Shown here in pieces: positions 27,162 through 30,546 of a DNA stretch of 36,270 bases; positions within the stretch are counted from its first letter, which is position 1; each line of letters begins with the position of its first letter. Position numbers and translations under genes: made by a program. The stretch spans positions 1 to 36,270 of IMG/VR virus record IMGVR_UViG_3300042542_000217; one strand, given 5' to 3'. Under the pieces are notes generated by a model, which saw nothing but the letters and a program-made list of their open reading frames with translations, did no database searches and had not been told where the DNA came from. The stretch comes from a virus.

Positions 27162-27677
27162 CTAATCTGTCCCCAATTTGTCTTTGACTTCAACATCAAC
27201 GACATTGCTGTCGTCCATCAGTACGCGCTGCTTGGCTTCTTTCAACGCATCCATGACGCTGATTCGGTTATCTGTAACGGCAACATCTATGCGATCCCCA
27301 TAAACCTTGGGCTTCAACTTACTAGCCACCCATTTGCGCGCATCGACTTGCATTCGCTTCTGTTGTACCCAAGCGCTCGCTAACGGGCCTTCTAGGCCAT
27401 CTGGCATCTGTTCATCAGCCAGCTCGAGAATCTCTTCAGCCAAGCGATCTGCGCGGCTCTCGAGGGCTTTCTCATACATTCCCCGAAACTCAGGGTTGTT
27501 CTTAATCATCAACATGACGCAATGGTAAGAAGGCATTCCATCATTGGATCTAATCACGCTGCTTAAACTCTTGCCTTCTGCGATCTGCTGACACATTACT
27601 CCCCAGCATGGGTTATCAATCCCAAACACAACAGGCCGACCGCCAGGATGCTTTTGCACTGCCAAGTTTTCAGTCAC
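27162..27677 (-). CDS. terS: Terminase small subunit
   Basis: A 171-residue DNA-recognition subunit of the packaging terminase. The GTG start is preferred: GGGGAG lies seven bases upstream and GTGA overlaps the stop of the preceding short ORF. A TTG five codons further upstream is the alternative. After a basic arm with GGRPVVFG, an HTH-like segment precedes FRGMYEKALESRADRLAEEI and RKWVASKLKPKVYGDRI, the signature of Sf6/P22-like small terminases. It should form a ring that selects the pac site and recruits TerL. Unusually, terL is not adjacent; the 701-residue gene and an origin-like gap lie between them. Confidence 0.9.
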   Translation of the reverse strand: MTENLAVQKHPGGRPVVFGIDNPCWGVMCQQIAEGKSLSSVIRSNDGMPSYHCVMLMIKNNPEFRGMYEKALESRADRLAEEILELADEQMPDGLEGPLASAWVQQKRMQVDARKWVASKLKPKVYGDRIDVAVTDNRISVMDALKEAKQRVLMDDSNVVDVEVKDKLGTD

Positions 27678-27766
27678 TTGTAAACTCCCCAAAAAAGAAG
27701 GTACTCACACCGATCTGGTGCTTTCCCCAAAGAGTGCGGCAACTGCAAAGTAGCGCACACCGTCAT
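27674..27766 (-). CDS. Short coupled ORF between RusA and terS
   Basis: A 30-residue ORF (TVCATLQLPHSLGKAPDRCE, then YLLFWGVYK) whose ATGA overlaps the RusA stop and whose stop overlaps the terS GTG as GTGA. It fills the gap exactly and would carry ribosomes from RusA to terS. Two cysteines and an aromatic tail are present, but there is no family match. It may be a leader whose main function is translational coupling. Confidence 0.5.
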   Translation of the reverse strand: MTVCATLQLPHSLGKAPDRCEYLLFWGVYK

Positions 27767-28101
27767 GCTATCACCTCGATCTCAACTTGGTAAACCTTAA
27801 CACCACCAGGTCGCTGGAAATACTGCCAATCGATCTGCTTATGGCCATCATCAACGCCAAGCCAATCAGCGACGCCATCCCTGACTGCTTTAAACGCTGA
27901 CTGCAGGTTATCCCCATCCAACGGCCTGGGCGCCACCCTGGTAAGCACAATGGTGCAAGGCGGTGCTGGTGGTGCAGCCAAACCAGCCAGTGCATTGAAC
28001 GCGCTTTGCCGGTGCTTTTTCGCCAACTTAGCTTTAACTGCCCAATGCAACCTTAAGTTCGCAACCGACACAATCTTCAACGGCAGGCAAACTTCAATCA
28101 T
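27763..28101 (-). CDS. rusA: RusA-like Holliday junction resolvase
   Basis: A 112-residue endonuclease of the RusA fold. The C-terminal half shows PRPLDGDNLQSAFKAVRDGV followed by ADWLGVDD, with acids D62, D64, D84 and D85 and lysine K71 in the positions used by the family for metal-dependent cutting of four-way junctions. The N-terminus (IEVCLPLKIVSVANLRLHW) is the usual first strand and loop. The start is set by AGGG seven bases upstream; an ATG two codons earlier is possible. The open frame continues 85 codons upstream through repeats and is not likely translated. It probably resolves branched DNA before packaging. Confidence 0.88.
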   Translation of the reverse strand: MIEVCLPLKIVSVANLRLHWAVKAKLAKKHRQSAFNALAGLAAPPAPPCTIVLTRVAPRPLDGDNLQSAFKAVRDGVADWLGVDDGHKQIDWQYFQRPGGVKVYQVEIEVIA

Positions 28102-28137
28102 TACCATGCCCTGTTTCCCGTTTTCCTGATTTCCCGC

Positions 28138-28330
28138 CATCCTGGTCCATCCGGCCCATCCGGCATCCGAACCATCCTGGGTATATATACCCAGGAGGAA
28201 GGATTCGGATGATTGCCGGGGTGGGAACCCGGATGGTTTCGGATGACTTCGGATGATTCGGATGATGATTCGGATGCATCCTGATTCATCCGATTCGGAT
28301 GGTTTCGGATACTTTCGGATGGTTTGGATG
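28138..28330. repeat. Inverted iteron-like repeat array around a palindrome
   Basis: Left arm: five CATCC copies at 28138, 28148, 28157, 28164 and 28173. Right arm: eight exact TTCGGAT copies at 28204, 28238, 28248, 28257, 28269, 28294, 28304 and 28314, plus near copies CCCGGAT at 28228 and TTTGGAT at 28323. The arms are in opposite orientation (CATCC pairs with GGATG), and many spacings are 9-12 bases. A 15-base palindrome (28287-28301) overlaps the primase stop codon. Such phased arrays usually bind several copies of one protein, as at iteron origins. Confidence 0.85.
28175..28196. repeat. Perfect 22-base palindrome
   Basis: Each half is TCCTGGGTATA, the two halves meeting at the centre without a spacer. 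The AT-only core (TATATA) sits between GC-rich arms and lies between the two oppositely oriented iteron arms. It could be a duplex-opening or dimer-binding site, or a resolvase target given the adjacent RusA gene. As RNA it would form a hairpin upstream of rusA. Confidence 0.9.
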
Positions 28331-30331
28331 ACTCCGATACCCCCCATCAGCCTCAACTACCATGCCCTTGGCAATCATACTTTTGACTACTTCCCAAAAT
28401 CTATTATTCTTCACGTTGTGCTCCTTGGCCGACTCCCGCCACTCGTCGTAATTAACTGCACTGGTTTGTTGATCGGTCGTTCGTTTGAGCTCGAGCATAA
28501 CCAGGCACTCCATGACCCGCTTTTGGTTTGGTGACAGGTACGTCTTCTTTTGGACCTGGCTAACCAGGCCGCTGATGTCAACGCTAGTCAGATACGCGCC
28601 CTTGACCGCCAAGTTGTGCTTGTCCAAGATCGGCAGGTCAATTTGGGTGATTTGAAAATTCTTGGCCGCGGGCATTTCAGCGTCCTTCATCTTCTTGGAC
28701 TCAAACTGGATGGTCTTAGAGCCTGAGTCCAACGCCACCTTGTACTCGGCATCCAGGGCACCGCGCAGGGCCGTTGATCCCCGGCTGCGCTCCTTGTCCA
28801 TGGCGCCTGAGTGGTGGACGACTAGCACGCAGCACTTCCATGGTTGGCGCAAATATGTGTCTAAATGCTGGATAAAGGCATTCATGTCCTGGGTTGAATT
28901 CTCGTCGCCCCCCATGTTCCTGGCCACGGTGTCGATGATGATCATGCTGGGTAAGCACCCGGCATCTGCACTGAGCTGCTTGACCGACTCAGCCACAATG
29001 GCCGCTTCGGTGCTGTCGTACAACTGTGCCGCCCGATGGCTTTTGTATAACGGCACGCCGGCCAGGCTGATGCCGTTGCCCAACTCCCACGCCTTAAATC
29101 GCCTGGCCAACCCGTTGTGTCCCTCACCAGCAATGTAAAACACCGCGCCCTGCTGCACCTGGTGCCCATGCCACGGCACGCCAGTGGCCACACAGCAGGC
29201 GATGTCGATGGACACAAAACTCTTGCCACCGCCTGGATCACCAAACACCTGGGCCAAGCTGTCGCCCTCAATGTAATCGTCTACGATCCACTTGATCTGG
29301 GTTAGCTGCAGGCTGTCTGCTCTCGAGAACTCAAACGGCAACTTGTCCTTAACTGGTCCTGCCACGCGCTCGATCTGGTCTTTTACTGCTTCCAAACCCT
29401 GCAGGCAGTGCAGGTCATTAAAGTCTGTTGGTTTGGATGGCAAGTCAGACTCCGCAAAGTTTGGATAAACGATCTCGCCAAATACAAGCGACGCTGCAGC
29501 TCGACCCTTAGTTACCCCAGGGTTGCCCTCTGTGAACTGGTCATTGTCAGCACCAATCACGATCCTGGCCCCAGGAAACATCTCTTTGGCACTTTTGGCC
29601 ACCTTGGCCAGGTTGCCACAATCAAACGCCACCAGCACCGTGTACCCCGTTGCTTCGTGTATCGACGCGCAAGTGGCAAACCCCTCGCCAACAAAGATCA
29701 CCTTCCGGTTGCCACGCAACTCATAAAACCCACCCTCAATCTTGCCACCCTTTAAAAACCGTTTGTTCCCGTCCGCGTCAATGGTCTGGTAGCTCAGTAT
29801 CTCCCCGGCCTGGCTGATCACCGGCACCACCAGGCGCCCAGCCCGGTCAATCTTGATCCCATAAGGCCCAATGCGCTTTCTGACCAGGTATGGATGGTCA
29901 GCACTGGCATCTGTGTACGTCCCAACCTCCTCTTCTGCCTTCTCTGCAGCAACGGCCTGCGAGGCACTCTTCTCAACTTCACGCTTGGCCTTGAACTCTG
30001 CCACCCACTTATCGTGCTCGAGTCGCTCGCTAAACGTCATTGACCTGCCAGTTTCTGCCACCCACTTGGACTCAAATGTTGGCTCTTTCCAGCAGCCACA
30101 CACACCCACAGGAATCTTGCCCCCAGTGTGCAAGATGTACCAAGCATCCACCGCACCCTTCTTGCTTGATATATGGGGCACCCGGTGTATCTCACCATCA
30201 GCAATCAACTCCTTGATCACCAGGCCGGACACCTCACAGTGCCGGCGAAAGCCCTCAACAGGGTTAACCAAATCTTGCGAGTCTGTGGCCACCGCAAAGC
30301 CATTGGGAAAAATGCTCGATAAACTGCTCAT
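28286..30331 (-). CDS. TOPRIM primase-helicase
   Basis: A 681-residue bifunctional replication protein. The N-terminal part (about residues 20-90) has paired histidines and cysteines and may be a template-binding region. The TOPRIM primase core contains VGEGFATCASIHEATG (E215) and IGADNDQ (D261, D263). A RepA/DnaB-like RecA ATPase follows, with Walker A GDPGGGKS at 363-370, Walker B MIIIDT around 463-467 and the sensor VLVVHHSG at about 501-508. It should prime and unwind the phage DNA for the host polymerase. The start overlaps the repressor stop as ATGA; an in-frame extension of 46 codons lies inside the repressor gene. Its last codons are made of the iteron repeats. Confidence 0.9.
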   Translation of the reverse strand: MSSLSSIFPNGFAVATDSQDLVNPVEGFRRHCEVSGLVIKELIADGEIHRVPHISSKKGAVDAWYILHTGGKIPVGVCGCWKEPTFESKWVAETGRSMTFSERLEHDKWVAEFKAKREVEKSASQAVAAEKAEEEVGTYTDASADHPYLVRKRIGPYGIKIDRAGRLVVPVISQAGEILSYQTIDADGNKRFLKGGKIEGGFYELRGNRKVIFVGEGFATCASIHEATGYTVLVAFDCGNLAKVAKSAKEMFPGARIVIGADNDQFTEGNPGVTKGRAAASLVFGEIVYPNFAESDLPSKPTDFNDLHCLQGLEAVKDQIERVAGPVKDKLPFEFSRADSLQLTQIKWIVDDYIEGDSLAQVFGDPGGGKSFVSIDIACCVATGVPWHGHQVQQGAVFYIAGEGHNGLARRFKAWELGNGISLAGVPLYKSHRAAQLYDSTEAAIVAESVKQLSADAGCLPSMIIIDTVARNMGGDENSTQDMNAFIQHLDTYLRQPWKCCVLVVHHSGAMDKERSRGSTALRGALDAEYKVALDSGSKTIQFESKKMKDAEMPAAKNFQITQIDLPILDKHNLAVKGAYLTSVDISGLVSQVQKKTYLSPNQKRVMECLVMLELKRTTDQQTSAVNYDEWRESAKEHNVKNNRFWEVVKSMIAKGMVVEADGGYRSHPNHPKVSETIRIG

Positions 30332-30546
30332 GCTTGTGCCTCCACCAACTCTGGCCATATAGACTTCCAACTGCCCTGGCACAGCATCTTGCGAGTGATC
30401 TTGCCCCCACTCTCTTGCTCTATGCGCACAGCCTCCCAGGCAGACATCTCTCGACGCCCACTTAGGCACTGGTATAGGTACTGTTCATTCATGCCGACTT
30501 TTTCTGCCAGTGCTCGGCGCTCATCTGGTGCGATTTGTGTGTTCAT
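30328..30546 (-). CDS. YdaS/Cro-like repressor
   Basis: A 72-residue helix-turn-helix protein. Residues 11-50 (RALAEKVGMNEQYLYQCLSG, RREMSAWEAVRIEQESGG) are the HTH and following helices. The ending WKSIWPEL is typical of the YdaS/Cro family in lambdoid and related phages. It is the first gene of the leftward operon, next to a 15-base palindrome that is a likely operator. The ATG has no Shine-Dalgarno, and a -10-like box lies very close, suggesting a leaderless or nearly leaderless mRNA like lambda cI from PRM. It may control the divergent early promoter. Confidence 0.88.
   Translation of the reverse strand: MNTQIAPDERRALAEKVGMNEQYLYQCLSGRREMSAWEAVRIEQESGGKITRKMLCQGSWKSIWPELVEAQA

Follow-up and report, generated by a model that had tools for sequence, protein, structure and literature searches.

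A putative phage replication origin: an iteron array behind a primase-helicase gene, with repeats that vary with the protein's C-terminal winged helix

Directly behind the primase-helicase gene of a virus (IMG/VR record IMGVR_UViG_3300042542_000217, positions 1 to 36,270, the whole stretch of 36,270 nucleotides analysed here and called the window) lies an array of short repeats, or iterons, that face a palindrome from both sides. From comparative sequence analysis and analogy with known origins, we consider it very probable that this array is the replication origin of the phage and that its iterons are bound by the C-terminal winged helix of the primase-helicase. The layout is conserved in relatives, the repeat word co-varies with the winged helix, and the base pairs of the central hairpin co-vary with one another. 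An earlier note on this DNA had offered an origin bound by the primase-helicase as one of several candidate roles, and this role is now strongly favoured: among the neighbouring proteins tested, the repeat type tracks the C-terminal winged helix of the primase-helicase alone.

Iteron origins beside the gene for their own initiator are already known. Judged by the papers searched, three things are new: such a plan occurs in many full-size phages whose putative initiator is of the TOPRIM/RepA type, a hairpin replaces an AT-rich centre, and winged helix and array are a candidate specificity cassette; no published description of the array in these phages was found in the literature searched, which has few subscription journals. 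The analysis offers a concrete, testable candidate origin and initiator for widespread, uncharacterised aquatic tailed phages, several of them cultured.

The iteron array and its neighbours

The features of the region, in window coordinates, are as follows.

27162-27692, minus strand: small terminase subunit gene (Sf6-like), a candidate rival (pac-site) binder; does not follow the iteron type
27763-28107, minus strand: RusA-like resolvase gene, flanking the array; does not follow the iteron type
28138-28330, minus strand (read on the primase-helicase gene strand): whole iteron array, the putative replication origin
28138-28174, plus strand: rusA-side half, inverted copies likewise pointing at the palindrome; CATCC at 28138, 28148, 28157, 28164 and 28173, with a full CATCCGAA at 28164-28171
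28175-28196, no strand assigned: palindrome/hairpin TCCTGGGTATATATACCCAGGA, with stem pairing preserved in relatives through compensatory changes
28197-28330, minus strand: gene-side half, CATCCGAA iterons about 10 bp apart and pointing at the palindrome; exact 8-mers at 28204, 28238, 28248, 28257, 28269, 28294 and 28314, ATCCGAA at 28304, degenerate copies at 28230 and 28324
28287-28301, no strand assigned: inner inverted iteron pair at the stop codon, CATCCGA at 28287 facing TCGGATG at 28295 within the gene-side half
28289-28330, minus strand: last primase-helicase codons, written by iterons
28337-28546, minus strand: C-terminal winged-helix domain, residues 596-665, whose sequence class predicts the iteron word
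28286-30331, minus strand: primase-helicase, 681 aa, with a TOPRIM primase, an RSF1010-RepA-like RecA-fold helicase and the C-terminal winged helix; proposed initiator
30328-30546, minus strand: small YdaS-like HTH gene, overlapping the primase start, a candidate rival binder; does not follow the iteron type

Read on the primase-helicase strand, the order is the gene end, the CATCCGAA copies, the 22-base palindrome, the inverted copies and rusA. The earlier note had described five CATCC copies leading to a perfect 22-base palindrome and then at least eight exact TTCGGAT repeats in the opposite orientation. All of these are present: the CATCC copies lie where it placed them, the palindrome at 28175-28196 is the longest of the window (the next longest has 14 bases), and TTCGGAT was located eight times (28204, 28238, 28248, 28257, 28269, 28294, 28304 and 28314). 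Its description of an inverted array centred on the palindrome stands as regards inverted copies on both sides, but the array is asymmetric, with about 4-5 copies on the rusA side and 8-9 on the gene side. As it had said, the repeats extend into the 3′ end of the primase-helicase gene and set its last codons: the stop codon is at 28286-28288 on the minus strand, and the last dozen codons (...SHPNHPKVSETIRIG) are iteron sequence.

The array is real and far beyond chance. All eight exact CATCCGAA sites on the two strands of the whole 36,270-base genome fall within 28164-28321, and when the window is cut into 205-base tiles, every top-scoring tile (5 to 9 copies of one 7-mer) touches the array. 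In 1000 dinucleotide shuffles of a 205-base stretch, the top count of any 8-mer reached at most 6 (8 observed) and the longest palindrome at most 18 bases (22 observed). GC skew has no switch at the array, which neither supports nor refutes an origin, and no tRNA genes were found. Beside the array, a stretch at 28380-28410 in the winged-helix coding region is AT-rich (AT about 0.7, 99th percentile) and could be an opening site or mere codon content. A GGTTCCCACC-like element at 28215-28232, in the middle of the gene-side half, is not the same in all lineages of the CATCCGAA type.

ATG 30331 is the most likely start of the primase-helicase, rather than GTG 30469, because most relatives carry stops in the upstream part. 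Its helicase is of the RecA-fold AAA_25/RepA type, with RSF1010 RepA (1g8y, matched at E 1.6e-8) as the sole PDB sequence relative at E 0.01, and its fold resembles T7 gp4 and RepA (1nlf). The C-terminal domain is modelled as a winged helix, and its nearest folds include the winged helices of MCM, Cdc6 and ORC (Z 8.5-9.9), a likeness at fold level only that is shared with unrelated winged helices. In a Foldseek search with the winged helix alone nothing matched at E < 0.001; P4 alpha is absent among the matches listed, which excludes nothing. In several cultured relatives, a short regulator gene is annotated at the place of the YdaS-like HTH gene, and at the left end of the window, positions 1275-1904 on the plus strand carry a gene of the PHROG 'ferredoxin' family (phrog_3704, E 2.4e-72).

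Conservation of the array and its hairpin

Relatives were collected by scanning viral contigs with the window's primase-helicase, which gave 80, and by additional scans that used a sister and two homologues from cultured phages as queries; ten genome-contig loci and four phage records were added, for a final set of 290 sequences including the window. The genome contigs yielded distant relatives only, and a DNA similarity search against phage records gave nothing useful. An array was scored where one 7-mer occurs at least 6 times in a 260-base tile behind the gene. By this measure 161 loci of the window's own group, 103 of them distinct, carry an array, which bears out the conservation that the earlier note had proposed to look for: the same plan lies behind the primase-helicase in 103 distinct close relatives. 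The note would have taken close relatives with both flanking genes and no array as a refutation; no such case was seen among these 103, and a distant clade lacks the array.

Relatives more than 60% identical use six repeat words – CATCCGAA, TGTACCGAA, TTACCGAAAC, TGCACCGA, GTCCGGA and ATCCGGAT – within one layout. Convergent copies beyond the palindrome are present in 95 of 97 near and 46 of 51 distant loci, and 260 of the 268 copies beyond the hairpin are convergent; 84 of 97 near loci and 48 of 51 distant ones also have an inverted copy inside the gene-side half. The commonest plan is '>>><>>>>>> H <<', with a start-to-start spacing in the near group that is most often 10 bases, and the hairpin was not detected by the script in 11 loci. 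The array lies directly behind the gene in most loci and behind inserted genes in about ten (L065, L098, L100, L101, L103, L126, L148, L157, L160 and L163). The inserts are on the gene side, between primase-helicase and array, and the array remains beside rusA; that of L065 is a DNA-methylase-like gene.

Distant relatives, about 30% identical to the window's primase-helicase, include cultured phages with a similar plan and other repeat words: Idiomarinaceae phage 1N2-2 (GGTACA), Alteromonas phages PB15 and XX1924 (GGTTCA), Salicola phage CGphi29 (GGGGACA), Roseobacter phage CRP-406 (GCTGGAA) and Pseudomonas phage phiAH14b (GGGGAACA), in which primase and helicase are two genes. Uncultured distant relatives have many further words. 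The clade without an array behind the gene comprises about 30 contigs (among L180-L219, plus L253); their primase-helicase shares 54-57% identity with the CGphi29 protein and has another kind of C-terminal domain, and no similar array was found anywhere in three of its contigs of 31-37 kb. Loci L292-L297 are listed alongside this clade, and two circular spring-water phage genomes (L086 and L300) have no such array behind the gene. A separate motif, GGGGCAA, occurs strand-specifically within the array region of 25 of 54 distant arrays irrespective of iteron word (0 on the opposite strand, 1 of 101 in the window's group, shuffle mean 0.8), for example about 45-165 bases past the stop codon in L241, L222, L229 and L195; it is possibly a priming or loading signal.

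The palindrome is probably kept as a hairpin, because its sequence changes among the phages while its base pairing stays. Around a short TATATA core at the centre, the stem varies with pairing retained (TCCTGGGTATATATACCCAGGA, TCCTGTGTCTATAGACACAGGA, TCCTTAGTCTATAGACTAAGGA, TCCGTTGTCTATAGACAACGGA and others), and among 15 distinct sequences all nine stem pairs have changes on both sides. Paired stem cells make up 92.6% in these 15, against 58.7% when shuffled (0 of 500), a level that for the inner pairs is partly selection because the sequences were chosen for a perfect inner palindrome of at least 7 pairs; that choice affects neither the variety of pair types nor the outer pairs. The covariation signal (score 0.79 against 0.20, 0 of 500) collapses once the partner is slid, and the window array folds better as single-stranded DNA than its own shuffles (z -5.7).

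Covariation of this kind cannot separate RNA from DNA hairpins, and the element might act in a transcript, as a terminator, processing site or attenuator between primase-helicase and rusA. The hairpin has no T run after it and is therefore not an intrinsic terminator; no intrinsic terminator was found in the array, and promoter- and terminator-like sites near it are no more frequent than in shuffles, with no terminator-like site inside. The earlier note had also offered a replication terminator as a candidate role; on the transcription side a terminator finds no support. A transcript hairpin would also leave unexplained the two-sided iterons that are aimed at it and change with a DNA-binding domain, and we regard an RNA-level role as highly improbable.

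Repeat word and winged helix

Among the neighbouring proteins tested, it is the winged helix of the primase-helicase that the repeat word follows. The partial rank correlation between iteron distance and winged-helix distance, given all else, is 0.67 (0 of 500 permutations), against 0.16 for RusA and -0.23 for the YdaS-like HTH protein in the same test; a second test gives 0.68 for the winged helix, 0.08 for RusA and 0.06 for the small terminase. Columns that explain at least 60% of iteron type number 18 of 68 in the winged helix and 0 of 567 in the N-terminal, TOPRIM and helicase parts, with the per-column signal starting at about residue 590 and filling the winged helix, including the recognition helix. 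Left-out loci were assigned the right iteron type in 98 of 99 tests from the winged helix, in 66 from the rest of the protein (the body) and in 73 from RusA, and iteron type changes 5 times on the winged-helix tree, the minimum for six types, as compared with 21 times on the body tree and 23 on that of RusA. This coupling is what one would expect if the winged helix bound the repeats. The earlier note had proposed testing the N-terminal domain of the primase-helicase or the HTH proteins for binding; the N-terminal domain finds no support, the signal being C-terminal, and the YdaS-like protein does not follow iteron type.

The same division is apparent in pairwise comparisons. Bodies from different lineages are on average 5-20% apart regardless of repeat word, and winged helices diverge by 4-27% among phages of one repeat type versus 38-66% across types. 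The recognition helix (residues 642-655) reads NNRFWEVV in CATCCGAA phages, SNRFREVV in TTACCGAAAC, ARRFKECV-like in TGTACCGAA, YRRFKEAS in TGCACCGA and RNRFWDAA in GTCCGGA phages. In some pairs the body proteins are about 100% and the RusA proteins 94-98% identical, with winged helices about 50% identical and different arrays; in L140/L172 and L130/L078, the body DNA is about 90% identical and identity falls from the first winged-helix codons to the start of rusA. Coupling in the distant group is weak (partial correlation 0.17), perhaps from near-saturation of both sides, yet statistically present, as no permutation reached this value.

Winged helix and adjoining array may be exchanged as one block, and part of the correlation may then be linkage. 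Three things argue against linkage alone: the borders are sharp, RusA on the far side of the array lacks the correlation, and in six loci with inserts (L103, L157, L160, L163, L126 and L148) the repeat type still matches that of the closest insert-free winged helices, a comparison that does not extend to the GTCCGGA loci L098, L100 and L101, which all have inserts and no insert-free counterpart. Because near-identical remaining primase-helicase and RusA sequences carry differing pairs of winged helix and array, we lean towards the reading that the last approximately 90 residues of the primase-helicase form, together with the array, an exchangeable cassette of origin specificity. With such a cassette, co-infecting phages would fall into groups of origin compatibility, and the sequences would amount to a large natural table of winged-helix/DNA word pairs. 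The dozens of repeat word/winged-helix pairs are also material on how such domains select DNA and on why phages switch origin specificity so often.

The neighbouring genes suggest other binders. Pac sites often lie near the small terminase gene, which here is about 450 bp from the array (27162-27692), and a small terminase binding the repeats could start headful packaging from them. Its divergence is nearly free of correlation with iteron type (0.06, against 0.68 for the winged helix), and the array accompanies the primase-helicase in cultured phages with other gene orders, all of which makes a packaging site very unlikely. An operator array, through which the YdaS-like protein, or the primase-helicase as a repressor, would control rusA and downstream genes, fits the position of the array upstream of rusA and the small HTH gene at the primase gene start in the window and several cultured relatives. 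The negative correlation for the HTH protein speaks against it, as do promoter-like sites, of which none in the region is above chance and none lies in the array, and we think an operator very unlikely, though the initiator may make regulatory use of the array on top of its origin function.

The third of these candidates is RusA, whose target the earlier note had suggested the array to be. An extruded palindrome is a four-way junction, and the neighbouring RusA, matched in 158 loci of the window's group, would cut the cruciform. Two things disfavour this proposal: RusA does not track the repeats, with its 23 changes of iteron type, and no match to the window's RusA was found in the distant-group loci, many of which carry an array. 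We give it almost no credence.

Known systems and a putative mechanism

An initiator that binds iterons in or beside its own gene is familiar from the O protein of phage lambda, which differs in not being a primase-helicase and in having its iterons inside the gene. The alpha protein of satellite phage P4, which acts at ori/crr, has a TOPRIM-type primase, as here, and differs in its SF3 helicase and in cis sites that lie elsewhere in the genome. In alpha a single protein unites primase and helicase with iteron binding by a C-terminal winged helix (PMC4234260, PMC6092414), a feature shared with the reading given here; we claim no P4-type membership.

The closest layout is that of PICI/SaPI elements (with Rep or pri-rep), in which the origin lies directly 3′ of the initiator gene and has two sets of short iterons (PMC6092414), with iteron sequence differing between elements (PMC6092414, PMC7581432) and a C-terminal initiator domain that reads them (PMC7581432). 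Here too the array is immediately 3′ of the putative initiator gene, and two iteron sets flank a centre. The winged helix co-varies strongly with the iterons and may be their reader. Those origins have an AT-rich centre, in contrast to the covarying hairpin here: no AT-rich melting region separates the iteron sets, AT being about 0.35-0.55 across the array with a genome mean of 0.48. They also belong to satellites whose helicases are of the D5 or DUF927 type and whose primases are AEP enzymes, unlike the TOPRIM primase and RepA-like RecA-fold helicase of this full-size phage. In SCCmec, the isolated C-terminal domain of Cch2 binds direct repeats just downstream of its own gene, with inverted repeats near by (PMC7581432); it differs in having only three iterons, in binding without need of the inverted repeats and in a D5-type helicase.

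Two plasmids provide parallels for the hairpin. pRN1 needs a stem-loop downstream of the replication gene that is conserved in structure and not in sequence, and its ORF904 protein has a C-terminal winged helix (PMC4234260); this archaeal plasmid differs in having no iterons and a prim-pol with an SF3 helicase. RSF1010 oriV (RepA, RepB′, RepC) combines iterons, the RepA helicase and small hairpins, ssiA/ssiB, that are used for priming (PMC4234260, PMC4538821), and the RepA family is shared here by sequence match. RSF1010 differs in having three separate proteins, including the AEP primase RepB′ and the iteron binder RepC, as compared with one polypeptide with a TOPRIM primase here, where a single hairpin lies between facing iteron sets. 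Since defining features of the PICI and RSF1010 families are missing, we claim membership of neither. A similar plan, centred on a hairpin and with a different helicase type, is present in many full-size phages.

From the parallels with PICI/SaPI, SCCmec Cch2, pRN1 and RSF1010 we infer how such an origin might work. The primase-helicase would bind the CATCCGAA iterons through its C-terminal winged helix, and with copies about one helical turn apart on both sides and aimed at the hairpin, the protein would assemble there. The hairpin, with its TATATA centre, might then extrude or melt, and would provide a loading place for RepA-like helicase rings, a structured site at which the TOPRIM domain primes, or both.

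Prophage-like loci of Enterobacteriaceae (L094-L096, from Citrobacter, and L091) have a related primase-helicase with TGGGGGA-type repeats behind it, and are possibly a tractable laboratory system.
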